A DNA stretch of 64,000 nucleotides from Umbilicaria muhlenbergii. Its lineage: Eukaryota; Ascomycota; Lecanoromycetes; Umbilicariales; Umbilicariaceae. A program made the translations under genes and the position numbers. Below the pieces are notes generated by a model. It was given only the letters and a program-made list of their open reading frames with translations, ran no database searches and was not told the origin of the DNA. The stretch is from positions 1,270,364 to 1,334,363 of the forward strand of contig KK106984.1 in NCBI GenBank assembly GCA_000611775.1, written 5' to 3'. Within the stretch, counting starts at the first letter, position 1; every line of letters starts with the position of its first letter. This document shows, piece by piece, positions 11,860 to 64,000 of the stretch.

Positions 11860-12160
11860 CAGTTTTTACACAGCAGCATCTACTAAACTGAAGCTGAGAG
11901 AGAGAGAGATTATTACTATTCTTTGACCACCATTCTCTCCTGATCTGAACCCTATAGAGACAGTGTGAAATGTGATAAAGGACTATATTCAGGAGAATTA
12001 TTCAGAGAAAATGAGCTATGACATGCTCAGAGAGGCTGTCTATGCAGTCTGAAGTTATGTAACTAAATGAGATTTGAATCAGCTTATGACTTCTATGCCT
12101 GCTCACTGTCAAGCAGTCATTGACATCAATGGAATGCACATTAAATTCTAATATATCACT
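11860..12160 (+). mobile_element. Tc1/mariner transposase C-terminal remnant
   Basis: The reading frame at about 11,890-12,151 shows PPFSPDLNPIETV, the block around the last acidic catalytic residue of DDE_3 (Tc1/mariner) transposases, followed by IKDYIQENYSEKMSYDMLRE and a terminal segment ending GMHIKF and TAA. Conserved Trp positions before PPFSP, after IETV and further on read TGA instead of TGG, a direct record of the mutational process. Only about the last 90 codons remain; the HTH domains and first two catalytic acids are missing, and I found no terminal inverted repeats. It lies exactly at the edge of the GC-balanced island. Confidence 0.85.
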
Positions 12161-13452
12161 TCTCTACTACTCTTATAATTGCCTCAATAATTCTTCAATG
12201 TGAACTGCTTCAAGCTCTCATGAGAAAATCATGATTTTTGAGTTCAGTGAAAGCAGCATGGCACTAGCACCTCTGTCTATCTTAATGTATTAACAACACT
12301 TTCATCATGTATCACAGTACCTCAGAAAGTTTAGGAAGGTGCCTGTGACAAACTTTGAGCCTGTACCTCTCAGCACTGATTATGCTGAGCTGATAGAAGC
12401 TGACCTCACTTGATGGTAAAAGAGGGTGGTTTACATGCAGGACAAAAAAAAACTTTGCAGAGTGTGATTTAATGTCATCTGATTTGCTCTGAGGAGATAT
12501 CAGTCTGTGTATGACAGGGAGAAGAGCTGTTCATTTAATGCACAAATAAATAAAATTCAATCAGCCTTGTATTGTACATTTTTCATCTCAAATGACTCTA
12601 TGTGATAAAAGCCTAATTCTTCAAGGTCTAGATAAACTCTCACTGCATATGTCAGATTCTTGATCATTTAGAGGTGCTGACAGCTTGTCATTAATCCCTT
12701 CAGCGCTCTCAAATCTTGTCATCCTTTCTGTATATTCTTTTGCTCTCCTCATGACAGCTTCTACTCATCCTTCTTTGAATTTAAAATTCTTGATGCTATT
12801 ATCAAAATCACTCTCAAAATGTCTCAGAGAGCATTCTAATCATTGTTATGCAGTGTGTGACTCATCAGACAGCCCCCCCCCCTCTCAATCACACACAATG
12901 CACGCAAACCTAATTTGGCTGCATGCACATGCACACAATATCAGGCAGCCAAAAAGTTCATTCAAGAGGTGATCACAGATTGAGGGGTGGCTCATGTTCA
13001 GCGCTGAATTGATGCATTCCCTCAGTAAGTGAGGTTGTCAAATGTTACCTTACAGATCAGGCCGCAAACCAGATTTGCAATGATTGAAATAGCAAACTAA
13101 TCTTTATTTAGTTAGCATCAACTAATGTCATCTGCGCAGTTTATGTTGTGATCCACAAACTCTCTGATTCAACATCAGAGTTGATCAAAGCAGCTTGACT
13201 TCCTCTGTCTACATTTGCTTTGAATGAGTTAGTCTCAGATGTGAGTGAATTCAGATCAAGGGTGATGCTGCAATCACTAAATGATAAAAATAGGAATTGT
13301 TGCCGCCGTCATTTTTCATCTTAAACTCTAGTGCATTTCATCACTGATCACTTCATGTTTGACATGCTCCCTCTGACTCTTCCTCCCCCCTTCATTCATC
13401 AACCTCAGCAGTAATATAAACTCACTTGTTATTCCTCCTCCTTTCAGTTGAT
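12161..13452. other. AT-rich interval without a recognised gene
   Basis: Contains a C9-like homopolymer run near 12,875 and short frames (for example 12,685-12,972) with no family resemblance. A few CpG-bearing patches occur (about 12,985 and 13,300). The end of the interval is probably the promoter side of the DUF7924 fossil. Confidence 0.5.
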
Positions 13453-15260
13453 ATGGCCCCGCGTCAAGCAAAATGAAACATTCAAAAAGTTGAGCGGCAA
13501 TGCTCAGTGCCAAAAGGCGAACGTAAGTAAGTCATTCACATCAGTCATGTACTTTGACTGATCATTGATAGAAGCGCGGTCACAAGGTATCAAGAAAGAA
13601 TGCTCACAACTTTCTCCTCATAAAAGCTCACACCTACGCCGTCAGGTTCACATTATATTCAAGGACAGTGAATCAAAGTACTTGCTTTCCTCCTCAATTA
13701 ACAAAACTTCTGATAAAAAGGCATGCCACTCTCCTCCTGCTATGCTATAAAGCTAACTAGAGTCAAGTTTTCACAGATTAAAGATTGAAAATGAAAATGA
13801 TCATAAGAAGATGAACTCACCCTCTTCTTCAGTGTCACTCCCTCTTAAAAGTGATCACAAAAGTCCCCTCCACAATCTTTTATTGAGGGCACAATCAGTG
13901 AGAATGCAGCTGTTAATGACAGCAGAGAGGAGATCAACTCACTTGAATACTGAAGAAAAGAGCTTCATTGATTTAAGAAATACTTTAAATCAGAGATCAA
14001 CATGAATTATCTGCTTGTGAGGAAGAAATCTTCTTCATCTTTTCACAGCAAACAATCAGAAGCTGACTCTGCTGCACTCAGCTTTATCACACTCAGTGAT
14101 CAAAAGCTGAGGGAAGTCAAAAGTGCTTCATATCAAAGCCTGCAATATAGAATCCTGCTTGAGACCAAGGGTAGCTTCATGCGCAAATTGAATTTGAGTA
14201 TTATGAACATAAGCAAGATCATTTGCTGATCTCTTCTTGAAGCTGAGCAAATAGTTTCAGAGGATTCATTGTTTCAGGATGATCTCTTCAACAAGATGTG
14301 TGAAATGATACAAGACAGGAACAAGATCAAGGTTATTTAAGATATCACTCAACTGATCATTCCTTTCACTCAGTCTTTAGTCATACATGGCGTCAAACGT
14401 CTAAAAACCTTGATTGAAAGTGTCAACAAAGGCTGAGACAATTTCATCACTTTAATCAAGCCTCATCTGCAACCTGACTATGCTGTTGAATTCAAGTGAA
14501 CTGCATTCACTGAAGATCAGCTTAAAAAAATCCAGCTGTTTATTGATGACTTCTCAGAAATGTCTCTCTTTATGAGTACATACTATATGTACTTCCCGTT
14601 TCTTACATGTGAGGTCAAGTGCGGCGCTGCAGCGCTTGATGTTGCAGATCAACAGAATGCTCATAGCATGATGATGATCATGAGGGATGTTGTCAAACTC
14701 TTCAGGCTTGTGAAACATGAAAAGAAGCTTCATCAAGAGATACTCATCTTCTCAGTCTCACATGATGACTAAATGATGAGAATCTATGATCATTATTTTG
14801 TGATCAACAGAAAAAAGATCACCTTCTATCATCATCTGATTCATGAGTTCAGCTTCACGGAACTGAACGGCAAAGAGAAATGAACAGCATACAAATTCAT
14901 CAAGAATGTTTATAACATATGAATGCTGACTCACTTGAAAAGAATCTGTTTAATTATTGATGACTTGCTGCCTGATTTGAATTTTGAGAGCTCAGAGTAA
15001 TCTGAGTCAGAGGAATTCAAACTCTCACAGAGATTAAAAAGTCATCATCTCTTTAATCAATCAAGTCATGATGCTGCATCTTTACTGAAGGAAGTTGACA
15101 GTCAATTAAGTCATGTTGATTCATGAGATGTTACCCCTGATACTTCACTGTCTCAGAGGATCAATGGGAAAGCATTTAAAAAGTTAAAGAAAAGAGTTCA
15201 ACCTGTAGAGCTACATCAATCTCAAGACACTGATTGAAGATGAGAACACTTTTAAGGTGA
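13453..15260 (+). pseudogene. DUF7924-family protein fossil (PD-(D/E)XK-like core)
   Basis: A start-like MAPRQAK at 13,453 opens a frame traceable, with several interruptions, to about 15,260. The recognisable core at 14,540-14,990 reads YFPFLTCEVKCGAAALDVAD, QNAHSM, VVKLFRLVKHEKKLHQEIL, FSVSHDD, then FTELNGKEK and AYKFIKNVYNIWM, the characteristic succession of the fungal DUF7924 domain. The E-V-K in the first block is the proposed nuclease-type acid-lysine pair of the PD-(D/E)XK fold, which is family knowledge, not shown here. Expected Arg and Trp codons have become His, Gln or TGA. Members of this family occur in many copies in some Pezizomycotina and their role is unknown. The N-terminal third is Ser/Lys-rich and probably disordered. 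Confidence 0.75.
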
Positions 15261-15837
15261 TTAACTGTTTGAGAAAAAAGGTAAATATATAAATGAGGAG
15301 AGAACCTGAGAGCATTTATTTACTGTGAAGTTTAAGGCAATCTGTATGATACAATGAAGCAAATTGACTGATTTGTATGATTAACCCGGCAGTTGTTTTT
15401 AATTAAAGACATTGTTGTGCTTAATAAGTAAATGAGGAATCTTTATCTCTTCTTTTCTTCACTCACTTTGTTCTCTCATCTGATGCAGCTTTCTGACCCT
15501 CTGCAAGAGATATTCAAAGAGTTAACATTTCAAAAATTGTTCAATTCCCCTCATATCATCAGTTGAAAATGCTCATTATTAGGGGGATGCAGGAAGAGGT
15601 GAGGAAGATCTACTCTTACTAAATTTAAAACTCACTGAGAATTTTATCAACAGTACATCAACATCCTTGAAGGCAGATGTTCAATTCTTTTTGTCTTGAG
15701 CATTGAAAATCTGCAGAAAGCTCTATCAATCTCAGCATTAAGACTGCAGCACAATAATATGAAATGCAGATTCACACAGAAATAAAAACCTTTTAAGAAA
15801 CTTCAGCATTGTCATTTATTCAGTGCTGTTAACCTCT
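15261..15837. other. AT-rich interval, nothing recognised
   Basis: No domain-like translation was seen on either strand. It separates the plus-strand DUF7924 fossil from the minus-strand frame that follows. Confidence 0.5.
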
Positions 15838-17430: not shown

Positions 17431-17909
17431 TTAACTGCACAACTGAACTGCAAAAAAAAAAAGGCAGAGATGAGGAAATCAATGAGTTCATGTAGACTTC
17501 TCACACTGCTCTCACAGAATTGAAATACATCTTATGATTCACTATGTTATATCATGTCATTCTCTTCACCTCCTGACGCCCTCTTCATGAAAATGTCTCA
17601 GCATCAATGCAGCCTCTCTTGTGCAGAGAGATTTGCAGCAGCTGCAAGATCTTGTTACTGTTGATCTTGCACTCTCATATCAGAATATACTCATTCACAG
17701 CTGTTACCTTCACTTCACTGTGCATCATGATCAGCTGATCTCAGTATCATCTCTTGATCATCAATGAGGCTGTGAAAAGCTAAGCAGGAAGGAGTGAGGA
17801 TCATCATATGAAAAGTGAGTGCATGACTTCAGATATTGCCCTCTTCACCTGTCTGAAGACTTCAGGCAGATTAGTAAACTGACACATTTCAGGTTCTTCC
17901 TGTCATTCA

Positions 17910-18930
17910 CATTCACAACTTGGCAGCCCGCTCAAAAATAAGGTTTTAGTTAATAATACTTTATGCGCTCAGAGCACTCTCTGAGCAGTAAATGAGCTCA
18001 TACAAATCTTACACTTTAAATAACTATTATACCTTCATGAATAATAAAAAACTTTTTATTGAAAAGTTTTAGATCTCTTTATTCTGTACACTTTACAAAC
18101 TAAAGATTTCTTCATAAGTTTAAATTTGCAATAGTTATGAATTAAAAAACTTTTAACTAATTATAAATATATTAGCATATTGAATAACTATTGCGCTTTT
18201 ATACTTATGATATAACTTTCAGTGATGAAAATCACAACATTAATAAACCGACTTTTAATGACTTTTTGAATAACTCAATAACAACAACACATAAAAAGAA
18301 ACTTTGTATCAGAAAACTCTTAAACAGCTTATTCTCTACAACTTATAAACTGAGAGTTATATCATAAGTATAAAAGCGCAATAGTTATTCAAAGTATGTG
18401 ACTTTTTTTGAAAGATTTTTCGCTGTTGAAAACTTGAATTAAATATAACTTAACAGCAACAGCAGTTATGAAGAAACTTTTAGTTTAACATTAATAGAGA
18501 ATACTGTTCTTTATAACTTGTGCATTGAAAGTTTCTTCATATCTGTTGAGGTGCAAAAGTTATTAAAGTGTGTAGATTTTTAAGTGATGAAAATCTTGAA
18601 GTTCTTTAAATATTCAGAACTCAACACTTATAGAGTGCTTTCAGACTCAACAAATCATGATTTTTTATTGCAGAAAAGTGAATTTTAGCAAAAGTTTACT
18701 TATTATAAGTTTTACTGTTATTATAACACTGTGTGTGTACTTGTTTAAACAATTGTTTTAATAACTGTTTTTTTATCGCAAAATTTTGATGTTCCGCTCA
18801 AGATTTAAGGTTGAGCTCAAAGCGCTCAAAGGGTGCTAAGAGCGGCTGTTAGCTGAGACATGAGATCAGAAGCTCAGAGCGCTCAAAGTGCTAAAAACTA
18901 ACTCAGAGTTAACTTGCTAAATTGCTGATG
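17910..18930 (-). repeat. 1-kb TIR element, copy A (inverted)
   Basis: First of three copies of an AT-rich element of about 0.9-1.1 kb; this one is inverted relative to the copies at 37,275 and 51,205. The ends form imperfect terminal inverted repeats: CAT(T/C)(C/A)(A/G)CAA(C/T)TT(G/A)GCA, followed after a gap by TTAGTT..TAG(T/C)ACTTT(A/T)GCGCTC. Inside, TTGAATAACTATTGCGC (about 18,179) recurs inverted at about 18,365-18,392, giving an internal stem. There is no coding sequence. Flanks 'tcattc' on both sides may be a short target duplication, but this is not certain. Probably a non-autonomous DNA transposon. Confidence 0.8.
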
Positions 18931-20625
18931 TTCATTCTCTTCTCTTTAAAGACAAGTTAAAATATTTCTACTTGCACAAAATCTTCCGTGATCTCTTCAT
19001 GTGAGAGGGTTTTGAGTATGACTACATTTTTGACTGAATAATCCTCAAGTATTTTATGACTGCATGATGATTGTGACACAATGATTCAGTACATCTCTAT
19101 CAGCTTGACATTAGAGAGTTAAATGATCACATCATGACACTGCATGTCAACAACTGAACAGGGAAAGCCAAGGATGAAGATAAGAAAACCTGAAATAAAG
19201 CAGGATGAAGCAGTCAGAAAGGATGACAAATGAAGCAAGAAATGAAGTAAAGAGAGACTTGTGAGAAAAGAAGTAAAAGAAGATAAAAGGAGTTGATGCA
19301 GATAAACTTGACATAATCACAACTGTACATTATGACATTAAATTATAAATGACTTCAGACAAGAGTCTTGTGTGCTTAAGAAGACTGAAGAGTGTGAGTC
19401 TGATAATGAGAAGATCACTCTTGAGATTGACAATTAAGCTCTGCAAGCGCTTATATCATTGAGTTTCAAGTTTAAATGAGATTTTGCCTTTCAAGGTTCT
19501 CCTGAATGAAAGAGCAGATAAAGAGAACATTAACTTGATTATTACACTCACTGAGTCACTGATCTCAAAATAATACAAATGCTGAGAAAAAGCAGGCTTA
19601 ACCTCTCTTCTGTGTAAAAAGCAGAAGAAGTTTAACTATAAGCTTTTTTTTTTTAACTCTTCTTACAGTACCGCTTTGAAATTTAACAGTGTAATAATAA
19701 GAGAATAGTTGCTTTACTTGCAGTTACAATGAATTTACACAGGTTATCCTAATCATGTTGAAGGCGCAGGAAGAGCAGAGAATGATAACTCTGTCTCAGA
19801 AATAAAAAGAGAAGCATGAGTTAAAGCATTACTTCAATGCTCTTAAATCTTTAAATCCCTCTATTATAGAGAATTACTGACAGTCAGTCAAGTAATTCCT
19901 CACTAAAAGAGGGCATTGAGATGAGGGGTCTACAAAGGAGGCTAAAAAAATTGATTGAAAAAAGCATGTTATATAGAATTTCATTAACAGACAATTTCTC
20001 TTAAGTCAGACAGCCTTTATTTTGTATTAAATCTGAATGACAAACTTACTGCCTATTGAATGAATGGCCTTTACATACAATTTTTGGTGAGGTTGTGATC
20101 AATTCAGTGCAAGTGAGATTTTGATGTGAGAATTTATTTGAGCATCATGTGAAGGGTTGAGGGCCCCTTCAACTAGAAATGCATCAATGCATTGATGAAA
20201 TGCATTAAAAAAAACACTATGATGACTTGTTCTGAGAAGTCAGAAGCTTGCTGCACCTATAAAGCAAGAAGATGATTAAGTACAGCAGGATTAAAAAGTG
20301 TCATGTCTTTATTCATGTTCACTGCCTCTCATTAAGAGCAAGTCAACAGTAAGTGTGACAGGACCTTCATGAAGAAGAGTCAGAAAAGATGCTCTGTCAC
20401 AGCATCAAGAATCAGAATCTTCTTATTCTGAATGTTCAGTCTGAGAGTTTATCTGATAAAGGATCATATGCCTCTCAGTGTTCTGACTATCTCTTTGAGG
20501 CCGCCTAAACATCAAAAGAGCATTAGATTAGAATGTTAACTTATCAGCATCAGTGAATACATCTGTAAAAAGTTTTTAATTTTTTGAAAATCAGAACATC
20601 ATAACTGTCTGCTTCTTCTTTAATG
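18931..20625. other. AT-rich interval, nothing recognised
   Basis: Contains Lys-rich codon runs around 19,140-19,300 on the plus strand and scattered short frames, but no family resemblance. TGA and TCA triplets are very frequent. Confidence 0.5.
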
Positions 20626-21789: not shown

Positions 21790-23280
21790 TATGTTCACTC
21801 TGAAAGCTAAACATAGTTTCACTCTGTAAAGCTTATTTCAACAGTCATCTTTAAATGCTCTCATCATTTCCTGATGATGCAATTTCTTCTTTCTTCAACA
21901 GTTCAACACCTCTGATCACATGCTGTTTTCTTACACAGCATGCTTGTTTCCTCATGATGCATAGTCATTTCTTGCACTTCAGTTTGATTTTCATCTACAT
22001 AAGTTAACTCACTTCTACTGATGCTCATTTCCATCATGCTTTCTCATCATGAATGTCACTCAATTCTATGTGATCACTGCATGCAGTGTTTTCATCATGT
22101 TGATGACTCTCAAGAATCTTCTTTTTATGAAGTGAGTCTTTCATGCTCTCATCATATTTGCAGTTAAACATCTCACTTATTCATACTTCATCTGATGTCA
22201 TCATCTGATGAGATTATGAAATCATGCTGATGTTCTTGTTCAGTTGATTTATTTTATGATCAATGTCTTCTGCATGATCTTTCATGTCACTTCTTTTCAA
22301 GAGGCTGAGTTCTGAGTGAGAACTCTTTCAATGATTAATATAATGCTGCTTTTCTTTAATCTTTATTTGAGCTTCATGACAGATGTTCTCAGAGTTTCTT
22401 TATTTATTTACTGTCACTTTCATTGCATGACAGGTTGAATGTTGTTGATTTTAAGTCTTATTCATGTGCTTGCTGCAATATGTGACAACTCATCTTACTC
22501 ACTTCACATGCCTAGGAATTTGTACACTGTCATGATAAATCACATGAATTTTACTTACATTCATTGAATCTGATAACTTATATATTCACAGAGAGAATCT
22601 TCTCTTGATCTGTTGATGCTGTTTTCACTCTCACTTTTTCACAAGCTCTCATATGAATTTTTTCTTCATGTTCACCACGTGTTGACCTTTCTGTGTGCAT
22701 ACACTCTGTGCCGGCACCTGAGTTTGCAATCATCACTGACTTGAATATGTGTTTATGTCTTTGTGAGAACTTTTAACATCATCTTCATCCTTCAGTTCTG
22801 CAGCATTCTGCATCACAACATCAGTTTTCAATGAGGCTTCCCCTGAGCCCTGGTGACTCAGGTGGGAGGTGAGATAAAAATTATCATGATTATTCATTCA
22901 AGATTAAATGTCAAAGCTGAGCAGTACATTAATTTATGAATTTTATTAATCAGTTTTTGATTCTTCCTGCAAAGTCATTCATTCATGGTTGCATCTTGTG
23001 TGAAAGGAGAGCAGATGACACTGAAGCTTCTCATCAGGCTGCAGAAAGAACTCACTTCAAAGCTTCTGTGAAATGTAAAATCTGACAGCAGACTCAGGCC
23101 GGCTGATCTTCATCTGATGTTGTTCAGTGAGCTACACGGGCTTAATGCACTTTTGATGAAGTTCAGAACAGTTCTTCTGATGACTTCAGAGTTAAGAATT
23201 ACTGCACAATTGCTGTACCTTCAGCAGCTTATTCATGATTATAATGACTTTAAAGGTGAGTTCATCCTACGCTGATCTCT
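21790..23280 (+). repeat. 1.5-kb duplicated segment, copy 1 (inverted partner at 57.4-58.9 kb)
   Basis: Sequence from about 21,790 to 23,280 matches the reverse complement of 57,390-58,915 over nearly its whole length, with frequent C/T and G/A differences. The right third carries a shared protein-like frame (QMTLKLLIRLQKELTSK, then ADLHLMLFSE, then TAQLLYLQQLIHDYNDF) of unknown family. Near 22,850 is a small hairpin formed by gagccctggtgactcaggtgg. No LTR-like ends or TIRs were found, so this may be a duplicated unknown gene with its upstream region. Confidence 0.75.
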
Positions 23281-26030: not shown

Positions 26031-27830
26031 ATGAACAAATTTAATCAGATACTGACATAAGGTCTTTTGAAAGATGTGTTTAAATCATTCTGTGCTTTAG
26101 CAGATCATAGCAACATCCCTTACATTACTTTTCAACATCATGCACGCGGTTGACAGTTCAAGGAAGAGAAGACTTAAAGTCAACATTATTTTTATCTGTG
26201 AGAAGTGAAAGCCCTTGTTAAGTTCTTGATACAACAGGATGCTCTTGAACGCTCTGTCTGAATAAAGTATATATGTTCAATAGTCTTCAGTCTCACCCGT
26301 CAGCAGCCCTCAACAGACAGATCAAGTAAGTTTCTGAGCAAGAATTAATCACAGTCCTTTTACAAACATCATTCAGAACTCAGAGTGAGTAAGAGTGAAG
26401 TGCTGAACTGAAACTGTTATGACATCTATGAGAAGGTCATGCATTGATTCAAGGTGATCAAAAAGATACTGCAGGATTCAATCATGCTACAGGAAAATAT
26501 GTATAACATGAATGAGACTGACATCATGCTTTTTAAACTCAACTCTATTAAAGTCCTTGTCAGTAAGGATAATAAGTGAGGTTATAAAGATGCACATGTT
26601 AAGTGCATGATGATAACAGTCATCAAATGCATGAGTGCAGTGAGTAAGTATTTGAATCTCATGATAATCTGATCAGCAGCAACTCATTAAGTCAACTGAA
26701 TCATGTATTTTACTTTTGAATGACATTATGCATGTTCTGACACTGAATATACTGACTCATATATCAGCTTGCAGTGACTCAAGCTTGTATTTAACCCTCA
26801 AACCAAAGAGTGTGCTAATCAGAAACCTCAAGTACTGATATGCAACAACTTCAGGACACATGAAACTCTCAAGATCTTAAAGTTTTACTTTGAAAATAAT
26901 ATCACCCTGTGCTGTCTCTCTTCTCACACATCACATAAGCTTCAGCCCTGTGATATCTCAGTATTTAACTCACTGAAGGCAGCCTATCATGATCAGGTTG
27001 AATGATTAGAGTGAAGATATATAAAAACAATCAGTAAGAAGCATTTCACTTATTTATATAACTTCACAAGGACTCAAGTGCTCACTTCTAGAAACATATG
27101 AGTTGAATGAGTTAAGGTCAACCTTTTCCTCTTCAACTCAGACAAGGTACTCAATGATATATCAAAGCCTCCTGCTGAATTAACTGCTCTGAAAACCAAT
27201 GAGGTAGGTTCTCATATGCAAAATCAAGTATCATAAACACTCATAACATTCATGTCAGCAGAAGCAGTTGCCTTGCTACATAATTTAATCAAACAGGATA
27301 CTAATATGCTTGATGAAGTGAGTAAACAGCACATACAGAGGCACATACAGAAGCTCACTAATATCATTTAACTGTTTTTTGCTGAACATGTTCTCCTTCA
27401 GGAACACAATCAATTCTTGACTGAAATAAACAATGAAGTCAAAGCTCACTGATCAATCAAGTCACAGAACTTAAAGGAGGTGAGAGTAATAAATTATAAG
27501 AATCTTAAAAAGGCATGAGTGAAGTGAGCTGTGAAAGAGGCTGTGAAAGAAGCTAAGAAGGCTGAGAGAGAGGTTAAAAAAACTGAGAAAGAAGTTAAAA
27601 AGGCTGTGAAAGAAGCAAAGAAAGTCATAAGTGCTACATCAGAGGTAAAGAAAGTTACTGCAGGTAAGAAAAAACTTGATTGAAGTAAAATAACTCAGAA
27701 GCGCAAGAGTTCAGAAGAAGCAAATGCATCAGAGTTAAAAATTAAAATTGCTTAAATGAGTGATACACAGGTTGAGGAGGATGAAATTACATTAAAATCA
27801 TGAAAAGTCTCAGTGATGCAGATGTGATAA
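26031..27830 (+). mobile_element. pogo/Fot1-Tigger-like transposase (DDE_1) fossil
   Basis: An ATG at 26,031 opens a frame continuing, with many TGA interruptions, to about 27,830. Early part: a psq/CENP-B-type HTH region. DDE part: NMNETDIM (first catalytic D region), VLICNNFRTHETLKILKFYF (the CD-x-F-x-THE block with its second acid altered), and LSSHTSHKLQPCDISVFNSL, the most typical motif of fungal pogo elements. Then FNSDKVL and a Lys/Glu coiled tail (27,500-27,660). Arg and Trp positions are mostly Cys, His or TGA. Intact enzymes cut and paste at TA sites. Terminal inverted repeats were not found, so the true ends are uncertain. Confidence 0.88.
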
Positions 27831-28479: not shown

Positions 28480-29740
28480 TACTGATCAGCATATCAAGAT
28501 GCTTCTTACTCAGTATTTTTTTATTATCTTCATCATTTATATCTGCAGCTCTTCAGCTTTCTTTCAGTGTCCTTGATTCCTGTATGTCAAAGCAAGGTTG
28601 CTCATGCTGATCAGTGTAAAGAGATGCTTTTCACTCAGTATTTTTTTCTTGTCTTCATCACTTGCATCTTCAGCTCTTCAGTCTTCTTTCAGCGTCCTTG
28701 ATTCTTGTATGTTGAAGCAAGGTTGCTCATGTTGATCAGCATAAAGAGATGCTTCTCATTCAGTATTCTTTTTCTTGTCTTCATCACTTGCATCTTCAGC
28801 TCTTCAGCCTCCTTTCAGCATTCTTGATCCCTGTGTGTCAAGGTCAGATTGATCATGCTGCTCAGTGTATCAGGATGCTTCTCATTTAATACTTTTTTTA
28901 TTATCTTCATCACTTGCACCTGCAGCTTTTTAATCTCCTTTCAGCGTCCTTGATTCCTGTGTGTCAAGGTCAGATTGATCATGCTGCTCAGCATATCAAG
29001 ATGCTTCTCACTCAGTACTTTTTTTATTATCTTCATCACTTGCACCTGCAACTCTTTAATCTTCTTTCAGCATCCTTGATTCCTGTGTGTCAAGGTCAGA
29101 TTGATCATGCTGATCAGTGTATCAGAATGCTTCTTACTCAGTATTTTTTTTGTTGTCTTCATCACTTGCACTTGCAGCTCTTCAGCCTTCTTTCAGCATC
29201 CTTGATCTCTGTGTATCAAGGTCAGATTGATCATGCTGATCAGTGTATCAGGATGCTCCTCACTCAGTACTTTTTTTATTGTCTTCATCACTTGCATCTT
29301 TAACTCTTCAGCCTCCTTTCAGCATCCTTGATCCTCATATGTTAAGGCATGATTGCTCATGTTGATCAACATAAAGAGATGCTCCTCACTTAATATTCTC
29401 TTCATTATCTTCATCACTTGCATCTTCAGCTCTTCAGCCTCCTTTCAGTGTTCTTGATTTTAATATGTTGAAGCAAGGTTGCTCATGCTGATCAGTGTTT
29501 TAGGATGCTTCTCACTCAGTACTTTTTTTCTTGTCTTCATCATTTATATCTTCAGTTCTTTCACCTCTTTTCAGCGTCCTTGATTCTTATATGTTAAGCT
29601 TATCATATTCATATTATTCAAAGTCTTCATATGCTCTTGATCAAGTATTCTCTTCCTTACTTTCATCATCAGTTTAAACAGGTTGACAGTCTCAGTTATG
29701 CTCTTCTTGTTACATGTGTATCATGTCACATTATATAACA
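28480..29740 (-). repeat. 126-bp tandem array encoding TPR repeats
   Basis: The same phase point (tcatcacttgca) recurs at about 28,661, 28,787, 28,913 and 29,039, exactly 126 bp apart. Equivalent but more diverged points occur at 28,535, 29,165, 29,291, 29,417, 29,543 and about 29,669. Some ten units are thus traceable. 126 bp is 42 codons, the period of NLR-associated TPRs. Neighbouring units in the middle are more alike than the outer ones, which fits recent expansion or gene conversion before decay. Confidence 0.9.
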
Positions 29741-37274: not shown

Positions 37275-38172
37275 CATCAGCAATTTAGCAAGTTAGCTCT
37301 GAGTTAGTTTTTAGCACTTTGAGCGCTCTGAGCTTCTGATCTCATGTCTCAGCTAACAGCCGCTCTTAGCACCCTTTGAGCGCTTTGAGCTCAACCTTAA
37401 ATCTTGAGCGGAACATCAAAATTTTGCGATAAAAAAACAGTTATTAAAACAATTGTTTAAACAAGTACACACACAGTGTTATAATAACAGTAAAACTTAT
37501 AATAAGTAAACTTTTGCTAAAATTCACTTTTCTGCAATAAAAAATCATGATTTGTTGAGTCTGAAAGCACTGTATAAGTGTTGAGTTCTGAATATTTAAA
37601 GAACTTCAAGATTTTCATCACTTAAAAATCTACACACTTTAATAACTTTTGCACCTCAACAGATATGAAGAAACTTTCAATGCACAAGTTATAAAGAACA
37701 GTATTCTCTATTAATGTTAAACTAAAAGTTTCTTCATAACTGCTGTTGCTGTTAAGTTATATTTAATTCAAGTTAAGTTATATTTAATTCAAGTTTTCAA
37801 CAGCGAAAAATCTTTCAAAAAAAGTCACATACTTTGAATAACTATTGCGCTTTTATACTTATAATATAACTTTCAGTTTATAAGGTGTAGAGAATAAGCT
37901 GTTTAAGAGTTTTCTGATACAAAGTTTCTTTTTATGTGTTGTTGTTATTGAGTTATTCAAAAAGTCATTAAAAATCTGTTTATTAATGTTGTAATTTTCA
38001 TCACTGAAAGTTTGAAATCAATATAACTTTTTAACAACAACAGTTATAAAAAAACTTCAAGTTATAAAACTGTTTAATGTATGAGCTCATTTACTGCTCA
38101 GAGAGTGCTCTGAGCGCATAAAGTACTATTAACTAAAACCTTATTTTTGAGCGGGCTGCCAAGTTGCGGATG
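37275..38172 (+). repeat. 1-kb TIR element, copy B
   Basis: Starts CATCAGCAATTTAGCA and ends TGCCAAGTTGCGGATG, which are inverted repeats of each other at 13 of 16 positions. It is nearly identical to copies A and C over most of its length and keeps several CpG sites. It has one copy of the internal TTGAATAACTATTGCGC arm (about 37,838); the inverted partner arm and about 190 bp present in C are missing. A 21-bp unit is duplicated in tandem at 37,751-37,792. No coding sequence. Confidence 0.85.
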
Positions 38173-49934: not shown

Positions 49935-51204
49935 TATTAAAAGTGAGCCTGAAAGAGAGGTTGTACTTATATTTATCAGAGTGATAATTTCTTCATTTAG
50001 CATTGTGAAAATCAATGTTTGCAAAGCAATTACTCAGCTCAGTTGTGCACTGAATTTCAAGAAGTGTAGAACAAGTGATGTTGTCTTAAGTATTCAAGTG
50101 TAAAAACTTGTGATGCAGGCAGATAATTATGATTAATAGAAATGATCTTTAAACATGATTCTCATTTGAGACAGCACCTGTCATGTGATCAGAAGATTAA
50201 GTGATGATTAAATTTATTCACATAAAAAGCATCTCATGAAAAGATTTTATGAATAATACTGTTTTAGTATTCATGATAAGTGTCTTTATGCATGATCTTC
50301 TGAAATAATTACTGAACAGATTTCTTCTATTTAACTTCATCATGACAAGATGAGTCATATCAGCCCTCTCATAAATAATACAATGTGACAATAGAAACCT
50401 GACAGTCAAATAAGTAATAAAACAGGCACTGTCAAGTAGATGTGTCAATCATCAGAGATCAAGAAGAGGGTCAGCTGAGGGAAAAAAAAGAGTGTGAGAG
50501 AAGCTTCTCAAATCTGAGAATTAACAAGATTATGTTAACAGAAAGTTCATTCATGAATGTCATCAAGAAGAACATAAAGTTGCAGAAGATTATGAATTTC
50601 ATCATTAATTACTTATAAAGGCTGTCACAACTCTGTTGATATTAAATGATTAAAGTTTTCTATCAAGAGCACTGACAACTTGCACAGTCATCAAGAATTA
50701 AGACATGCTCAAACACAACATAAAATGAAAGCACAAGCCTAACATGATCTGAAACTCAATCATAGCATAAGATTATATGTACTTGATTCACTGTAATCAG
50801 ATTTAAATTGTGATATCATGTTTCCTTACTCATCACTCTTCAACAAACATCATGATAATCATTAAAACAAATCATCACTCATCTCTGTAGAACCTGCATG
50901 AGGAAAGTTAAGTGAATGATATTAACAAGAGGAGGTCTTCTTTTCATCACTCATTCTTAAGAAACACATGCTTTGAAGGTTAAAGATGTCATCATTAAAA
51001 GAGACTTTTAACTCATCAGTGTCAACTTCTGAGCAGAAGCAGATGTAGTATCTGAAAGAAAATTAACAACAGTAAAAGATCAGCAGGGCAGATCATTTAT
51101 GCTGATAAGTTCATTACTTTTGCTGTGTTTTTTTATTAATTGCATCATGATGTTCTTTAAGACCTGTATGTCTGAATGATTTTATTTATCTTTCAGTGAT
51201 GTGA
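49935..51204. other. AT-rich interval, nothing recognised
   Basis: No domain, repeat or RNA gene was seen. It ends at the left terminus of TIR-element copy C. Confidence 0.45.
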
Positions 51205-52318
51205 CATCAGCAATTTAGCAAGTTAGCTCTGAGTTAGTTTTTAGCACTTTGAGCGCTCTGAGCTTCTGATCTCATGTCTCAGCTAACAGCCGCTCTTAGC
51301 ACCCTTTGAGTGCTTTGAGCTCAACCTTAAATCTTGAGCGGAACATCAAAATTTTGTGATAAAAAAACAGTTATTAAAACAATTGTTTAAACAAGTACAC
51401 ACACAGTGTTATAATAACAGTAAAACTTATAATAAGTAAACTTTTGCTAAAATTCACTTTTCTGCAATAAAAAATCATGATTTGTTGAGTCTGAAAGCAC
51501 TGTATAAGTGTTGAGTTCTGAATATTTAAAGAACTTCAAGATTTTCATCACTTAAAAATTTACACACTTTAATAACTTTTGCAACTCAACAGATATGAAG
51601 AAACTTTCAATGCATAAATTATAAAAAACAGTATTATCTATTAATGTTAAATTAAAAGTTTCTTCATAACTGCAGTTGTTGTTAAGTTATATTTAATTCA
51701 AGTCTTCAATAGTGAAAAATCTTTCAAAAAAAGTCACATACTTTGAATAACTATTGCGCTTTTATACTTATAATATAACTTTCAGGTTATAAGTTGTAGA
51801 GAATAAGCTGTTTAAGAGTTTTCTGATACAAAGTTTCTTTTTATGTGTTGTTGTTGTTGAGTTATTCAAAAAGGCATTAAAAGTCTGTTTATTAATGTTG
51901 TGATTTTCACCACTGAAAGTTTAAAATCAATGTAACTTTTTAACAACAACAGTTATAAAAAAACTTTAAGTTATAAAACTGTTAAATAGCTTCTTCTCTA
52001 CAACTTATAAACTAAAAGCTATATCATAAGTATAAAAGCGCAATAGTTATTCAATATGCTAATATACTTATAATTAGTTAAAAGTTTTTTAATTCATAAC
52101 CATTGCAAATTAAAACTTATGAAGAAATCATTAGTTTGTAAAGTGTACAGAATAAAAAGATTTAAAACTTTTCAATAAAAAGTTTCTTATTATTCATGAA
52201 GGTATAATAGCCTGTTATTTAAAGTGTAAGATTTGTATAAGCTCATTTACTGCTCAGAGAGTGCTCTGAGCGCATAAAGTACTATTAACTAAAACCTTAT
52301 TTTTAAGCAGGTTGTGAT
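51205..52318 (+). repeat. 1-kb TIR element, copy C (longest)
   Basis: Starts CATCAGCAATTTAGCA like copy B. The right end is shorter: the segment corresponding to GGGCTGCCAA is missing and it ends near GCAGGTTGTGAT. It keeps both internal arms, TTGAATAACTATTGCGC (51,743) and its inverted partner (about 52,027-52,054), so it can fold into a long stem. Several CpG sites present in B are TpG here (for example gcgataaaa versus gtgataaaa, gagcgcttt versus gagtgcttt). Its right end abuts an unidentified minus-strand coding remnant. Confidence 0.85.
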
Positions 52319-56610: not shown

Positions 56611-57389
56611 GTTCTGTTCACTCATTCACTTGATAATCATTGTTTACATGAGCGTGTGATTATTGCAGCAATGGCAGGGATAGCAGTTGAAAGCAAGAGA
56701 AGATTATATGAGCTCATTGAAATTTAAACATAAATTATTATTTCATGACTGATATTTCAGTTTCAACAAGCTTACTCTCTCATTTAAATAGCCTCACACA
56801 AGCCTTCACAGATCATCTTAAATTTCTTTAAAAGTGAATACTGCAACATTAATCAATGATTTATGAAAGCGTGAGTGAGTCTTACCTGTGATGAGCATCT
56901 TTTCACCCTTTTTCCCTGCTTTTGACTCATCAGATTTAAGCTTCACTGAGGTGTCTTGTTCAGTCTGTATCAGTTCTCCTTTCATTAAAGTTTTAATATT
57001 TCAGTCAGCTTCTTCTCTTAATTCTGATTTTAATCTTGATTTATTCTCTTTTTCTATTGATGTGCTTGAAGAATGCTTTTCAGTTACTTCTACCTGTAAT
57101 AGATCTGCTAAATTAATTAAGTTGAGGTGAATGAAGACCTGCTGATGTTGACCTGTGTTCAGTGAATCATGATTGACACATTCAGAGGTATAGTAGATAG
57201 AAATGCATAGTATCTGAAAAAAAGTCAGTGAAACCAACTGAAAACTTTGAGCAGGACAGATTAATGTAGTCATCATTTAAAATGTCTTTCTTTAAAGCTT
57301 GATTCAGTAAATTCTGCACTGAAGCTTCATCCTCTCCCTGTGTTAACTGTTAATTGACATGCAGACTGTTTTTCACTTACCTAGGTTTT
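56611..57389. other. AT-rich interval with a short unidentified frame
   Basis: Open frames on both strands at about 56,888-57,276 are Ser-rich (plus) or Lys/Glu-rich (minus), without a family match. Confidence 0.35.
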
Positions 57390-58915
57390 GAAGCTGTCAG
57401 ATCAAGTGAATACAACATGTATAAACTTCAAAGTTGTTGTAGTCATGAATGAGCTCTTGAAGATACAGCAATTGTGTGATGATTCTCAGTCTTAAAGCTA
57501 TCAGAAGAATCATTCTGAACTTTATTAAAAATGTGTTAAACTCATGTGACTCACTGAACAACATCAGATGAAGATCAGCTAATGCAGGTTCATTATCAGA
57601 TTTCATGTTCTGCAGAAACTTTGAAGTGAGTTCTTTCTGTAATCTGATGAGAAGCTTTAATGTCATCTGCTCTCCTTCTACACAAGACACAACCGTGAAT
57701 GAATGACTTTGCAGGAAGAATCAAAAACTGATTAATGAAATTCATGAATTAATGTACTGCTCAGCTTTGACATTTAATCTTGAATAAACAGTCATGATGA
57801 TTTTTATTTCACCTCTCACCTGAGTCATCAGGGCTCAGGGGACGCCTCATTGAAAACTGATGTTGTGATGCAGAACACTGCAGAACTGAAGGACAGAGAT
57901 GATGTTAAAAGTTTTCATGAAGACATAAACACATATTCAAGTCAACAATGATTGTGAACTCAGGTGTCAGCACAGAGCATATGCACATAAAAAGATCAAC
58001 ATGTGATGAACATGAAGAAAGAATTCATATGAGAGCTTGCAGAAAAGTGAGAGGAAAAGTAACATTAACAAGTTAAGAGAAGATCCTCCCTGTGAACATA
58101 TAAGTTATCAGATTTAATGAATGTAAGTAAGGTTCATGTGACTTATCATGACAGCATACAAATTCCTACGCATGTGAAGTGAGTAAGATGATTTGTCATG
58201 TATTGCAACAAGTGCTTGAATAAAACTTAAAATTAATGACATTCAACCTGTCATGTGATGAAAGTGACAGTAAATAAACAAGGAAACTCTGAGAACATCT
58301 GTCACAAAGCTTAAATGAAGATTAAAAAAAAGTGACATCATATTAATCATTAAAAGTGTTCCTGCTCAGACCTCAACCTCTTTGAAAGAAGTGACGTGAA
58401 AGATCATGTAGAAGACAGTGATCATAAAATAAATCAACTGAACAAGAACATCAGCATGACTTCATGATCTTATCAGATGATGATGTCAGATGAAGTATGA
58501 ATAAGTGAGATGTTTAACAGCAAGAATGATGAGAGCATGAAAGACACATTTTATGAAAGAAAGACTCTTGAGAATCATTAACATGATGAGAATGTCACAT
58601 GTGACAATCACATAAAGTATAATGACATTCATGATGAGGAGGCATAATGAAAATGAGCATCAAAAGAAGTGAGTTAACTTATGTAAATGAAAATCAAATC
58701 AAAGCGCAAGAAACAATTATGCATCATGTGAAAACAAGCATGCTGCATGCTGTTCAGAGATGATGCAAGTAGATGACATGTGATCAAGGGTGTTAAATTG
58801 AAGGAGAAAAAAGAATTTGCAACATCAGAAAATGATTCAAGCATTTAAAGATGACTGTTGAAATAAACTTTACAGGACAAAACTATATATAGTTTTCAGA
58901 GTGAATGAAGATCAA
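57390..58915 (-). repeat. 1.5-kb duplicated segment, copy 2 (inverted partner at 21.8-23.3 kb)
   Basis: The reverse complement matches 21,790-23,280 throughout. The shared protein-like frame is better preserved here: 97 codons open at 57,690-57,397 on the minus strand, containing MTLKLLIRLQKELTSKFLQN and ITQLLYLQELIHDYNNFEVY. The family is unknown. Beyond both ends similarity to copy 1 stops. Differences between the copies are largely transitions. Confidence 0.75.
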
Positions 58916-60712
58916 CTGATTATTGATTTGTCTCTCTCATTACATGATTTTCATTAACATGCATTCTGTAGCCTCATGACACCTGCTTTAGCTGTTGATC
59001 ATAGAATGCTGAACATTTGTAGAATTGTCTCTCAAATGTGTCTACAACCTCACCTACAGCTATCAAGCATATCAGGAGTAAATGAGCATAGAAGACAGCA
59101 GAGAAAAGATGTTGCAGTAAAAGTTACAGTGAGACATGAACACAGTAATAGATATGACAAGTTGATATCATTAAAGCCCTTTAAATGTAGTGCCTCAGGG
59201 CAGAATAAATTATTACTTCACTAAATGAGTCCTGTGAGCTGTAAGAAGACTGACAAGTTCACTTGTCTCTTGAGATGTGATCTTGATCCTTGTCAGATTG
59301 AACTCAGGCTGTGAATTAAAATTACTCTTGATAGCTGTGTTCTTCAGGTGTAGCACTTTTTCTTCAGTGATTAACATGATGTGTCATTTCTTAAATCATT
59401 AAAAGATGCTGCTTTTTGTACAGCCTTCATCAGCATCACTTCTGAGACAGATGATATTGTGACTGCATATTCACTCCTCATTGTCTGTCAAGGATTCAAG
59501 GCTCTGAAGTGAATACATCTTAAATTTCTAGATTCTCAGTCAGTCTTTAACCCTTCATCTGCTCCTTTAATTCTTGAGCATCTCATTCATGTTCACAAGA
59601 CTGTTTTTACTCTGTCATGTGTTCTCTTCATGTGAGTGATCTTGTCATTTGATGAGGTACTGATTAAGCTGAGAGGCATCTAAGATCTGAAGGACTTCAG
59701 GACTATATTACATAAATATCAGTTTCTTTGACATCATCATGAACTTTTAATAGCCCCTTGCAATTTTATCTGTTAATGTAGAACTGCTTAACTTTCTCTG
59801 ATATTCATTTGCTCTTATGTGAAGTTGTAACAGCAGATGACATTTATTCTAAGCTCATAGATGATGTGAATGTTAATGCATTCAGCCTCTTTTTCTGCTG
59901 ACTTTGAGACTGGACAACATTGGTAAGTGATGATAATGAATTTGTATCATCAGCACACTGTTTTGTTGATGATCATGTGAGGCAAGATGTTTTCTTTCTA
60001 GCAGCTTTGAAAATCCTTGATGAGTGAATGAGATGAAGAAAGGTGCTTGCTGAGTCAGGTGACAGTGTCTTTCTCTTGAGTTTAAATTTTCATTCACTTC
60101 TGCGCAGGGCAACATTCAGAGTTGAGGGTAACATTTTTATATTAAGCTCTGAATTCAGACTACCTGTCTGCTCTCTGAGTGATGATAATGCAAAGTGAGA
60201 AAAGCTCTCCTCTTGATAAGGGTGAAGCCTTTTCTTCTGAGTAACTTTAAAAACCTTTGATGAATGAACTGAATCAAGAACTGACTCTGCTGTCATTTGT
60301 TTGCATTTGTTACAGATCATTGACTGCCTCCTGAAAACTCTTTGAACATAAAGAACTCAGCAATTTGATCTGATCATGATATTAATTTCAACATCTCAGC
60401 TTGATCTTGATGATGATGATTGCTGCTCTTGCTCTTCTGATTGACATCTGCGCACTCAGAAGTGATCATCAAGAGTTGCTGATTGATTCACTTCAGGATG
60501 ATTTTATGCCGCCTTAAATTTATTATAACACATCATAATTTACTTTGAGCGCTTAGAACTTCTCCTCTGAGTTGAATTGTTTTCTTTTAAATTCTTACAT
60601 CATTCAAGTGCTTCTCTGCTGGTTTAACTTCTTTCTGAGTCAGCTCAATTAAGGCAGACCTTTCAGTTGTGTCTCTGAAGTCATTCAACTCTGCTGTCTT
60701 CAGTTGTTGTTT
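58916..60712. other. AT-rich interval, nothing firmly recognised
   Basis: A frame at 58,976-59,224 (plus) is less mutated than its surroundings and Arg/His/Lys-rich, but matches no family. Two minus-strand frames (60,320-60,090 and 60,115-59,882) are Ser/His-rich and unidentified. The interval ends at the target site of the hAT element. Confidence 0.35.
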
Positions 60713-63254
60713 CAGTGTTCTGAAACCCCCCCCCTCAGGGGGCTCCCCGGGGAGCCCCTCAGGCACTAGTACTGATGAGGTAAAGTGTGTGTGATGACTG
60801 AGGGGGGGGGGTGTGAATTTCTAGATAGTAGCAATATTAGAACCAATATTGTAGCAATGAAGAAGCAGTTATAGAACTCACATTTGTTTTAATAAAGTCA
60901 TGATTTGAGCACTTCACTGACCTCAACAATGTTCTCCTTCAGTTGATTTCATCAATCTGTTATTAGTAGCTTTGTACTACTGAATACCCTTTCACACTCA
61001 GCGGACATGACTGGAATAGAGCAGGTATCATAAGTCATTTGATTAAGATCAGGATAAAGACTCTCCTGTGACTGCTAATACTTCAGAAGGTTTTTGATAT
61101 CTGAAATGAAGTTATCTTGAAGGTAGATTTTCAGAGAATCAGGCTTCTCTATGATTTGATTGTCAGGCATGATAATAAACTGATTAAATTCATCTGAATC
61201 TGACTCATTAAAAGTCATATTGATGTCATCTGAAGAGGAAAGGTTTCATCCTTTGTACTCTGACAGTCATAGTGAGTTTAGAATCTCTTTTTCATGTTGA
61301 ATTCACTTCAGTTTCTCCTTTCAGCTGCTTTCAAACCATGCTCACTTTAGTCTAGGGTTTGTGACACAGGCAGTGTAGTAGATAAGTGACTTATCAAGCT
61401 GAGAGTAATATTCATTGATCTTCATTCATGCATTGATAATGCATACCTTTAGATGTTGATTTTCAGGCGTACATAAATCAACATTGTTGATTAAGATGTT
61501 GTATGACAGCTTCTTCTCCTTCAGCTTTGTCATTAGAAACTTCAGAGAGGTTAAATACTCTCATACACAGCCTTTTTCTCCCTTTGAACCATACCCTTTC
61601 ATGTGAATTATCAAAGTCTCAAACGGCTTCAAAATCTTCAGTGTTTCAACCAATAGAAGTCAGTCTTCTGAAGTAAGAACATCATGCTTTAAAGCTCTTT
61701 CTTGCTCTCTGTTCAGTCTGGTACCATGACTGCTAGTGGAGTTTTGAATAAGGAAATAATCAACAACATTTTTAAGCTGTATGATTCACTGAATCATTCA
61801 ATAGAGAGAATTCCACCTGGTTGCATTATCAGTCACTAGTTGAAGGTTTTGAAAGTTGTTCAGGGTGAGTGTATTCAGCTTAAGAAGGTCCTCAAATGCC
61901 TCTCTTCTTTGAGGCGTACAACATATAAAAGTGACAATGTTGTGAAGCTTTTCAACTGCTCCCCTTTTTTATCATAATTGCAATTCTTTAACGTCATCCT
62001 CAAGAGTTTGATGAAGAGTAATTTTAACCTCAAAAGCCTCTGTCTCCTGATTAAATAAGAAGGCTTTAACTCCCAGATTAAGCACATGTTCAAGACAGCA
62101 TAAATGACAGTGAATAAAGCTAAGATCTGAATGAAGCCTGTGCAAGACAATCTTCACACATGTGTCATTGAAAGAGGTGTTATTCAGAACAAAATAATCA
62201 ATCTTATTCACAATATCATACTTCATAATGATTTTTATAATCAGTTGAGTCATGTTTTCACCTGAGTGTGGCTCATAAAGCTGTTGAAGATCAATTAAAA
62301 CTGTGTGATTCTTGCTTAAATTATTCATGTAGTGAGTCACAATTTCAAGCATGATCAAAGCATTAGGAGAAGTTCATAAATCAAATGAAAAATGTATAAA
62401 ACTCTTGTTGATGTGTAATGACCTCTTGATCTCTGCCTTCTTGATCTGAAATTCTCTCATAATTCACCCCCTTATTGTATCTTCATTCAGAGGCAACATA
62501 CTGGCATTTAAGGTAAATATTGTGAATATGAAGTTTCAAAAGAAGGTGTTTTAAACAATTGAGAAAAGTATATGCATACAGACAATTCAGTGAATTAAGG
62601 TTGTATGAAAGGCATCATAATTGACATGAGAAATCAGATTACTAAAAGCACTTCCTTGCTGTTGCTGCTTCAGGACTGAGGTTGTATTTGATTAATCACT
62701 TTTTATAACATGATGTTTGTTTTTAAGATGTTCTTCAATGTGATTTGTTCCTTTCTTGATGAATGTGATCTTACAGAGACTGCAAAGTCAGAATTTCTGC
62801 TTATCTTCAGCTGCAATCAGCTCTGTATCATGCTTTCATATTCATGATGTATTTGAACTTCTGATTGAGCTGATGAGAGCAGTTGCTTTGATGTATGAAA
62901 CTCCCTGTACAGTAATTCAGTCACTAGGAGTCAGAGAGTCTAAAAGAGAAGAATTAAGATCAGCAGTGTTAATATTAATTAAGAGCAGTGAGCTGAGTTC
63001 ACTGATGATGTCACTGAAACTCATGTTGAAGGTTGAGGCTTGATTTTTTATAAATTCATTCAATTTTTGTTGATTTTTGTCTATCTACAATTATGTCTGC
63101 CTTATTCACTTTTTCAACCTCCCTCAGCAATCTTCATTAAAGTCTTAACATTAAGAGCCCCTTCAGGGGCCCCTCAAAACAAGTCAGAGACAGAAAGAGG
63201 TTGGCAAATCTTCTCTCCCCTCAAGGGTTTTAAAAGGAGGGTTTCAGAACACTG
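60713..63254 (-). mobile_element. hAT transposon, complete ends, degraded transposase
   Basis: Both ends carry the 16-bp inverted repeat CAGTGTTCTGAAACCC. The flanking 8 bp are tgttgttt (left) and tgttattc (right), an 8-bp target duplication differing by two transitions. The minus-strand transposase fossil shows, in order: a BED-type zinc finger with CSLC and HIEEHLKNKH (about 62,830-62,735); YFVLNNTSFNDTC (62,196-62,160), the first catalytic-acid region; LEHVLNLGVKAFLF; NATRWNSL (about 61,830-61,805); and the C-terminal dimerisation motif MSAECERVFSSTKLL (61,008-60,964). All hallmarks of a hAT element of about 2.5 kb are there. Numerous TGA codons at former Arg and Trp positions make it inactive. 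CpG/CpC-dense palindromes persist just inside the ends. Confidence 0.93.
60739..60758. repeat. Perfect 20-bp GC palindrome inside hAT left end
   Basis: GGGGCTCCCCGGGGAGCCCC is its own reverse complement and lies 26 bp inside the element's left terminus, between a C-run and a G-run. A related palindrome (aggggcccct) sits near 63,165 inside the other end. Subterminal motifs of this kind can serve as transposase-binding sites in hAT elements; that role is inferred here. Confidence 0.85.
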
Positions 63255-64000
63255 TGTTATTCTGTCAGCTTCATCTCTTATTTCATTAATTTCATCTCAT
63301 CATCTGCCTCTTTCTTCTGCTGATCATTTTGAAGAGCTCAGCTGATATCATTAAATTTATATTCTTCTTTAAATTCAGCTGCTTCTGCCTCACTCAATTT
63401 TGTCTGTGCTGATTTCAGCTCTTTTTAAGCTTGCTTAAACTTCTTCTCTAACAGCTCTAGTTTTTAATAATGATAAAATTAATATTCTCTTCAGTTATTC
63501 AGCCTGCTCTGCTGATTTCACTCTTAATGCAGTTTGACATCTCCTTGACAGATCAACCTCAGCAGGATGTCTTAATTATGATTGATTAACTTTGATCAGA
63601 TCATTAAAGCACAATTGAAATCTTAAGCAACACATGATGTTATGTGTTTTGAAGATATGATTCTCCCTGAATCACAAAGATATGTAAGATTACTTTATCT
63701 TCAATGCACATTATGCTGCAAGTATACAACAGCAGAATCTGAGACATCATATGACTTAAAACACACTTCTTGCACAGCTGCACAACATGGAAAACAATGA
63801 AGAAAAGAACAAGATGTGAAGAAGTATAATGCTGAAGACTTAATTTGAAGATCCTCACAGTTATTTTAAAAAGATGAGGCAGGACCTTGAACTGCAGCTA
63901 ATATTAAAATCACTTTGATCAGAGGCTGAGAGGACAAGCACAGAATTTCAGCTCAATCTGATCATGAGTGAATCTTGAAGACCAGGAAAAGAAAGAGGTT
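63255..64000. other. AT-rich interval to the right edge
   Basis: Short frames only (for example 63,640-63,858 minus). No domain or repeat was recognised. Confidence 0.45.

Follow-up and report, generated by a model that had tools for sequence, protein, structure and literature searches.

We analysed a 64,000-nucleotide window of the Umbilicaria muhlenbergii genome (C4:1270364-1334363, in an assembly of 34.79 Mb and 7 contigs, written C1, C2 and so on), in which a 5-kb gene island (6600-11800, GC content 0.511) is flanked by AT-rich blocks of GC content about 0.35. The island holds a short-chain dehydrogenase frame (7666-8229; Pfam adh_short_C2, E 7.8e-32), and the right-hand block (11860-64000) carries a decayed copy of a hAT transposon on the minus strand at 60713-63139. 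Our subject is the decay of these blocks and of their relatives elsewhere in the genome. It consists of C-to-T changes, or G-to-A on the other strand, that fall mainly on 5'-C-[C/G]-A-3', written C-S-A below (S, C or G; W, A or T). Repeat-induced point mutation (RIP) with a shifted target is its most likely source.

A reading of the window made from sequence only had held that CpA and TpG stay abundant while CpG and CCA/TGG are scarce, and composition bears this out. Observed-to-expected dinucleotide ratios in the right-hand block (GC content 0.348) are 0.10 for CpG, 0.48 for CC, 0.51 for GG, 1.50 for CA, 1.45 for TG and 0.57 for TA, against 0.81 for CpG, 0.84 for CC and 1.12 for GG in the island. 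Both classical RIP indices of the block, TpA/ApT at 0.61 and (CpA+TpG)/(ApC+GpT) at 1.71, are RIP-negative by the cut-offs in PMC7882544 (published sources are cited here from excerpts). The scarcity of CCA/TGG points to an A at the second position downstream of the mutated C (+2). In fact, CCA occurs 1.14 times per kb per strand in the block compared with 19.1 in the island, while TCA/TGA rise from 20.7 per kb per strand in the island to 45.3; only 119 CCA and 8 CGA are left in the block, both strands summed. Relative to a dinucleotide model of the window, CGA (0.06), CCA (0.16), CTA (0.37) and CAA (0.74) are depleted, and all other triplets that begin with C stand at 1.06 or more.

The ratio of C-S-A to T-S-A, (CCA+TGG+CGA+TCG)/(TCA+TGA), is 0.027 (127/4724) in the right-hand block and 0.024 (14/581) in the left-hand block, which lies at 1-6400 and is of the same kind. 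It is 1.567 (337/215) in the island, which serves as an undecayed internal control, and 1.9-2.3 at three DNA methyltransferase (DNMT) loci. Just 1 of the 104 half-kb bins of the right-hand block holds six or more C-S-A sites. We also scored 311 one-kb bins from the window and the loci fetched for comparison (overlapping loci counted again, and the sampling biased towards repeats): the 231 bins below 40% GC have means of 1.6-3.5 C-S-A sites by GC class and none reaches 15, while the 80 bins at or above 40% GC have means of 34-70.

Mutation context in the hAT copies

Decayed hAT copies were aligned with a near-intact copy on C2 (L049/L062; L numbers are our handles for fetched loci), the longer reference being L062:966-3419. 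Ten hAT places were projected on L049, and five decayed pieces longer than 300 bp were pooled. These are L063 on C1, the window copy L064 (also L054), and L066, L068 and L070, found one after another on C5 as pieces of one copy split by a long terminal repeat (LTR) element and other DNA, so that the pool holds three decayed copies. Excluded were L065 and L067, which belong to a single, almost unmutated copy (11 and 6 C-to-T changes), L071 and L072, both shorter than 190 bp (4 and 3 changes), and L069, a 70% relative. Two hAT copies that are 97-98% identical, C2:6135353-6138592 and C1:4564921-4568269, escaped decay; one has an insert of about 1.5 kb.

Over 2,336 sites L063 differs from the reference by 231 C-to-T or G-to-A changes, 10 reverse transitions and 3 transversions; L066 shows 42, 2 and 3. 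The window copy, which the sequence-only reading had recognised and which proved a firm hAT fossil, is 84.7% identical to the longer reference with a less pure spectrum (253 C-to-T, 60 T-to-C and 56 transversions), and it is an older copy or one of another subfamily. The direction of change had been described as unlike that of CpA-type RIP. This holds in the aligned copies: by 3' neighbour, CC (101/229, 44%) and CG (53/121, 44%) changed in L063 about four times as often as CA (37/336, 11%) and CT (40/326, 12%), and L064 gives CC 92/252, CG 59/121, CA 51/340 and CT 51/326. Changes are thus neither mostly at CpA nor equal across contexts.

CpG and CpC had been proposed as the main targets. C before G or C is indeed favoured, but the +1 base explains less than the +2 base (mutual information 0.123 versus 0.168 bit in L063, positions -8 to +8 scanned). 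With A at +2, the pool shows changes at 182/245 CCA, 79/119 CGA, 41/131 CTA and 55/288 CAA sites. Without it the counts are 11/168 CCC, 41/240 CCT and 14/76 CCG; 13/61 CGC, 17/77 CGG and 50/111 CGT; 20/256 CTC, 27/259 CTG and 18/337 CTT; and 8/177 CAC, 12/259 CAG and 25/295 CAT. L063 taken singly gives CCA 70/80 and CGA 28/39 versus CCC 4/43 and CCT 21/81, with CTA (19/41) and CAA (26/96) higher than CTT and CAG. Grouped into classes, its changes fall at 98/119 C-S-A sites, 56/231 C-S sites followed by another base, 45/137 C-W-A sites and 32/525 of the remainder. The odds ratio of C-S-A against the rest is 26.7 (p 2e-50) in L063, 13.7 in L064 (where 91/122 C-S-A sites changed), 21.0 in L066, 35.3 in L068 and 29.0 in L070. 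L063 has 143 changes with A at +2, whereas a model that knows the +1 base only expects about 68 and never gave more than 93 in 5000 simulations. The lightly decayed pieces L066 and L070 (5% diverged) have 26/42 and 22/34 of their changes at C-S-A; here 26/51 and 22/43 of the C-S-A sites changed, compared with 1-10% in the other classes. CpC as such is a poor target, and what matters most is A at +2. The motif can be written C-[C/G]-A, or more generally C-N-A with C or G preferred to T, and T to A, in the middle.

In L063 and L064 the information exceeds that of shuffles at no position from -8 to +8 other than +1 and +2; the pool adds -2 and +3, both by a narrow margin (0.0077 and 0.0059 bit). 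The -1 base stays within its shuffles in either copy and in the pool, and a model that includes it besides +1 and +2 raises the area under the curve from 0.836 to 0.841 only (L063). The fate of single sites tells the same rule. Classical RIP turns CCA into CTA; among 80 CCA sites in L063, 63 became TCA, 8 stayed CCA, 7 became TTA, 2 became something else and none became CTA.

Sites without a +2 A show a further CpG component, for CGT changed at 45% and CGC and CGG at 21-22% in the pool, compared with 7-18% for CpC. This component, a CpG ratio of 0.10 and a DNMT5-like gene in the genome are what one would look for if CpG methylation and slow spontaneous deamination had produced the decay, with CpC hit as a by-product. 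We regard that account as very improbable. CCA is as strong a target as CGA, and L063 has taken about 1.73 hits per C-S-A site beside transversions at 3/2336, a ratio near 1,300. Deamination of 5-methylcytosine raises mutation by far less than this. Near-pure C-to-T change on both strands of repeats, at some 1.7 hits per C-S-A site with so few transversions, speaks for RIP and not for slow deamination. Deamination confined to CpG is contradicted by CCA and could cover only the minor CGC/CGG/CGT component, which fits CpG methylation followed by deamination, with the DNMT5-like enzyme as a candidate.

The motif has a direct consequence in coding DNA, since CCA becomes TCA, or TGG becomes TGA on the other strand, and CGA becomes TGA or CAA. 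Codon changes of this sort at Trp, Arg and Pro had been read from the window itself and are real in the hAT frame, where the five pieces show TGG to TGA at 29/44 codons, CGA to TGA at 14/24, CCA to TCA at 18/24 and CGT to CAT at 11/18, with CAG to TAG at 0/21. New stops in this frame comprise 44 TGA, 13 TAA and 2 TAG. Genome-wide, 72 transposase matches contain 169 TGA, 54 TAA and 6 TAG, and 14 of the 72 are free of stops (pieces of one element may be counted separately). As both of the best targets can yield TGA, a single step is enough to close a coding transposon. NACHT matches have no stops in 20. All 20 lie outside the window, so the NLR fossil that had been named within it drops out.

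Other repeat families, edges and spared genes

An all-against-all comparison of the fetched loci yielded a second family, which represents one end of an LTR element (seven places; reference L070:1-1500, itself partly decayed). It shows changes at 119/141 CCA and 35/50 CGA sites, and at 50/105 CTA, 44/158 CAA, 25/164 CAG, 26/59 CCG and 23/58 CGG. A third family, hAT2 (six copies), was scored by taking C as ancestral wherever any copy retains it and gives CCA 136/221, CGA 86/133, CTA 147/383 and CAG 38/609, with CCG at 91/233 and CGG at 101/230. In the window, a two-copy decayed repeat with relatives on C1, C3 and C4 lies at 21936-23085 on the plus strand, with its 86% identical partner at 57596-58745 on the minus strand. 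Unpolarised C/T differences between this repeat and the C1 relative are CCA 5/6, CTA 5/7 and CAG 1/48; those between the two window copies, CCA 4/4, CTA 4/7 and CAG 1/43, follow the same trend with few targets left.

The two LTRs of one insertion are identical when it occurs. The LTR element inside the C5 hAT copy (C5:1200547-1209008, 8.46 kb) has 284-bp repeats bearing TG...CA ends, and its target is duplicated over 5 bp. Its LTRs differ at 27/284 sites: read from the L070 copy towards the L068 one, 26 are C-to-T or G-to-A changes and 1 is A-to-G, with no transversion, which again speaks against slow CpG deamination; 7/8 CCA and 6/8 CGA sites changed. The hAT pieces on the two sides of this element are unequally decayed, with C-S-A changes at 24/29 in L068 and 22/43 in L070.

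Decay tracks repeats in the DNA sampled: diverged genes are spared, with C-S-A/T-S-A near 0.03 in the flank versus 1.6-2.3 in the island and at the DNMT loci. A control pair, the DNMT5-like gene L011 and its degenerate copy L012 (79% identical), differs at 16/53 C-S-A and 25/81 other CpS sites and has no C-S-A excess. L012 (C1:6527376-6527678), a degenerate partial copy matched at 79% over 947 bp, is GC-rich and without C-S-A decay, which would agree with a process that requires about 80% homology. At L070 the decay ends with the hAT element: C-S-A makes up 18/79 of C-S-A plus T-S-A in the hAT piece and 73/105 in the right flank.

The same edge bears on a different agent, a DIM-2-like heterochromatic methyltransferase that mutates AT-rich heterochromatin, also in mitosis, with methylated C in C-S-A turned efficiently into T. 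The genome has a long open DIM-2-like frame, and of the 235 one-kb bins with fewer than 15 C-S-A sites 231 are below 40% GC. Zymoseptoria Dim2 promotes mitotic C-to-T change at CA, and a supplement legend in the same paper reports CGA and CGC as preferred among methylated CG sites (PMC8016269). But the mitotic context in that source is CA and not C-S-A, and the L070 hAT piece changed at half of its C-S-A sites despite an undecayed right flank. We consider this account unlikely, though it deserves more weight than deamination at CpG.

Pure C-to-T change on both strands with a trinucleotide context also resembles the signature of a cytosine deaminase, APOBEC-like or other, acting on C-S-A outside any RIP pathway. 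Yet DNA transposons of the hAT type are hit as well as LTR elements, the diverged genes tested are spared and the genome carries RIP-type enzymes. We know of no such deaminase in fungi, and none was searched for here; the idea seems to us highly improbable. Modified motifs can give C-to-T miscalls in some long-read assemblies, so base-calling errors at methylated CCA and CGA in repeats might be suspected as well. Against this stand changes at up to 83% of C-S-A sites per piece, graded from 0.51 to 0.83, hits at CTA and CAA too, the depletion of a whole 52-kb block and the fossil frames that bear its consequences. An artefact is the least credible of these accounts, close to negligible.

Candidate enzymes and comparison with known systems

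Three methyltransferase genes are candidates for a role. The RID-like gene (L010, C4:3522938) has DNA_methylase matches in two frames, presumably separated by an intron, with a PCQ motif and, at the usual place of ENV, the EQT that marks the RID group. The DIM-2-like gene (L009) is a long open frame whose best solved relative, 9bap, is a distant homologue (E 4e-173), and the DNMT5-like gene (L011) has the solved relative 7r76 (E 8e-64), presumably the DNMT5 of Cryptococcus. A MAT alpha-box frame is open in the genome.

To explain these results we propose that the block is a graveyard of transposons hit by a RIP-type process that targets C-[C/G]-A and not CpA. Copies would be recognised by homology prior to meiosis. 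An enzyme of the DNMT1 family, for which the RID-like protein is the likeliest candidate, would then engage a C that has A two positions downstream, its target shifted through an altered target-recognition region, and the engaged C would be deaminated, or methylated and then deaminated. A RID-like enzyme with a shifted preference would be the favoured agent and DIM-2 the main alternative. That repeats undergo directed C-S-A hypermutation seems to us very likely. A RIP-type process with this target, the RID-like enzyme being favoured, is the best explanation and probably the right one; RIP in the strict sense, premeiotic and dependent on RID, is somewhat favoured.

Several observations weigh against this proposal. 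No enzyme is tied to the motif, and the loci sampled favour repeat relatives and are not drawn evenly over the genome. L070 gives the only clean repeat edge; around L066 the DNA is decayed on one side (5/147) and partly so on the other (52/127). The window copy shows CTA at 4/84 CCA sites, besides its T-to-C changes and transversions. The -1 base varies within CpC (TCC 91/171, CCC 28/115) and CpG (TCG 30/97, CCG 29/51), and other contexts are active too, CCG and CGG reaching 0.39-0.44 in the families with heavier decay. The two near-intact hAT copies persist, so the process either misses some copies or has not been active of late, and the reference hAT keeps C-S-A at 127/254, versus 0.67-0.68 in its flanks, so that it may be slightly decayed itself. 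Single cycles of RIP in Neurospora leave one-strand patches; one-strand runs within a copy were not found in L063 (98 runs; permutation mean 103.1, sd 7.3), though repeated cycles would erase such patches too.

Compared with RIP in Neurospora crassa, whose preference is CpA>CpT>CpG>CpC (quoted in PMC5496416), repeats are likewise hit by near-exclusive C-to-T/G-to-A change, AT-rich graveyards result and a RID-like gene is present. Here, however, the target is C-S-A, CpA is the least-hit dinucleotide (lowest of the four in L063), TpA is not enriched and stops are mainly TGA. The genome therefore departs from canonical CpA-type RIP; it agrees with RIP in the broad sense, with its C-to-T excess, repeats hit and genes spared, and a gene of the RID/Masc1 type. 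Altered dinucleotide preferences are known from ascomycetes with RID/Masc1-type enzymes: CpG in Tuber, CpG with CpA in Aspergillus, CpT in Botrytis and Magnaporthe (PMC4352252). Those variants are defined by the +1 base, and the excerpt of that paper describes neither a +2 dependence nor a CpC signature. The basidiomycete Microbotryum does have a trinucleotide target in repeats, TpCpG, but its extra base is a 5' T at -1 (PMC5381629) and not an A at +2; in our data TCG (30/97) is the least-hit NCG (ACG 46/90, CCG 29/51, GCG 28/51). Rhizoctonia solani AG8, another basidiomycete, undergoes CpG-biased C-to-T hypermutation that includes CpC changes (one per 214 bp, against 370 bp for CpG, in its Table 2, uncorrected for opportunity), yet it is seen between nuclei, strikes genes and repeats alike and has no +2 rule in the excerpt (PMC4014442). 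Mitotic Dim2 mutation in Zymoseptoria tritici shares a DIM-2-type enzyme and C-to-T change, but converts CA to TA (PMC8016269). In Ascobolus, methylation induced premeiotically (MIP) leaves the sequence unmutated, whereas here it is changed.

The literature searched, in excerpts that did not extend to Clutterbuck 2011, a key older survey, held no report of a +2-dependent (C-N-A) target, and a 2025 kingdom-wide screen of di-, tri- and tetramers concludes that a preference for CpA is common to RIP-like defences (PMC12543289). Within that literature we rate C-S-A-targeted mutation as a previously unreported form of RIP. There is an even chance, in our judgement, that it represents a separate fungal class that reads the base two downstream (C-N-A, best C-S-A), turns Trp and Arg codons into TGA and is invisible to +1 indices. 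The usual CpA/TpA-based surveys would score such a genome as lacking RIP. Since RIPCAL-type tools score dinucleotides only (PMC2621366), some ascomycetes called CpG-type or RIP-free may, if this is true, belong to the C-N-A class. The C-S-A/T-S-A ratio offers a simple index, at about 0.03 in decayed DNA against 1.6-2.3 in the island and the three methyltransferase loci. The case also separates repeat recognition from base context and provides a natural contrast for what sets the preference of RID or DIM-2.

Other repeats and fossils of the window

A decayed pogo-like transposase fossil of the DDE_1 type lies at 26616-27047 on the plus strand with 6 TGA and 1 TAA; L077, another decayed copy, matches it at 89.8% identity over 2.2 kb. 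The Tc1 remnant of the sequence-only reading has a counterpart in a Tc1/mariner-like DDE_3 match (11864-11998, plus strand) that holds 2 TGA and lies on the block's edge, although the match is weak, at E 7.2e-4 and below the family cut-off.

A non-coding dispersed repeat of 1.03 kb occurs three times in the window, at 17905-18931 (plus strand), 37275-38172 (minus) and 51204-52314 (minus). It has at least 183 matched pieces, from the scoring of 40 of 311 candidate places, and most of the long matches listed have 96-99% identity. If this is the 1-kb terminal inverted repeat element named from the sequence, that label does not fit, for the ends taken show no such repeats (6/40 bases match). The first copy has 4 C-S-A sites compared with 29.7 expected from base composition. 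We rejected the repeat as a gauge of new mutations: it is poor in targets, its CCA count of 8/16 reflects one site and its CGA count of 12/75 three sites, and the outlier copy L044 is uninformative. The repeat may have spread through offering the defence few targets, or spread after mutation.

Smaller structures include an inverted repeat at the left edge of the island (6595-6754; arms of 76 bp, loop of 8 bp) and, in the left-hand block, an 18-bp tandem repeat at 4284-4427 inside a 152-codon minus-strand frame. At 28516-29696, in the right-hand block, lies a tandem array of some nine units of 126 bp (42 codons), which are 69-86% alike and come with an open frame of 137 codons.

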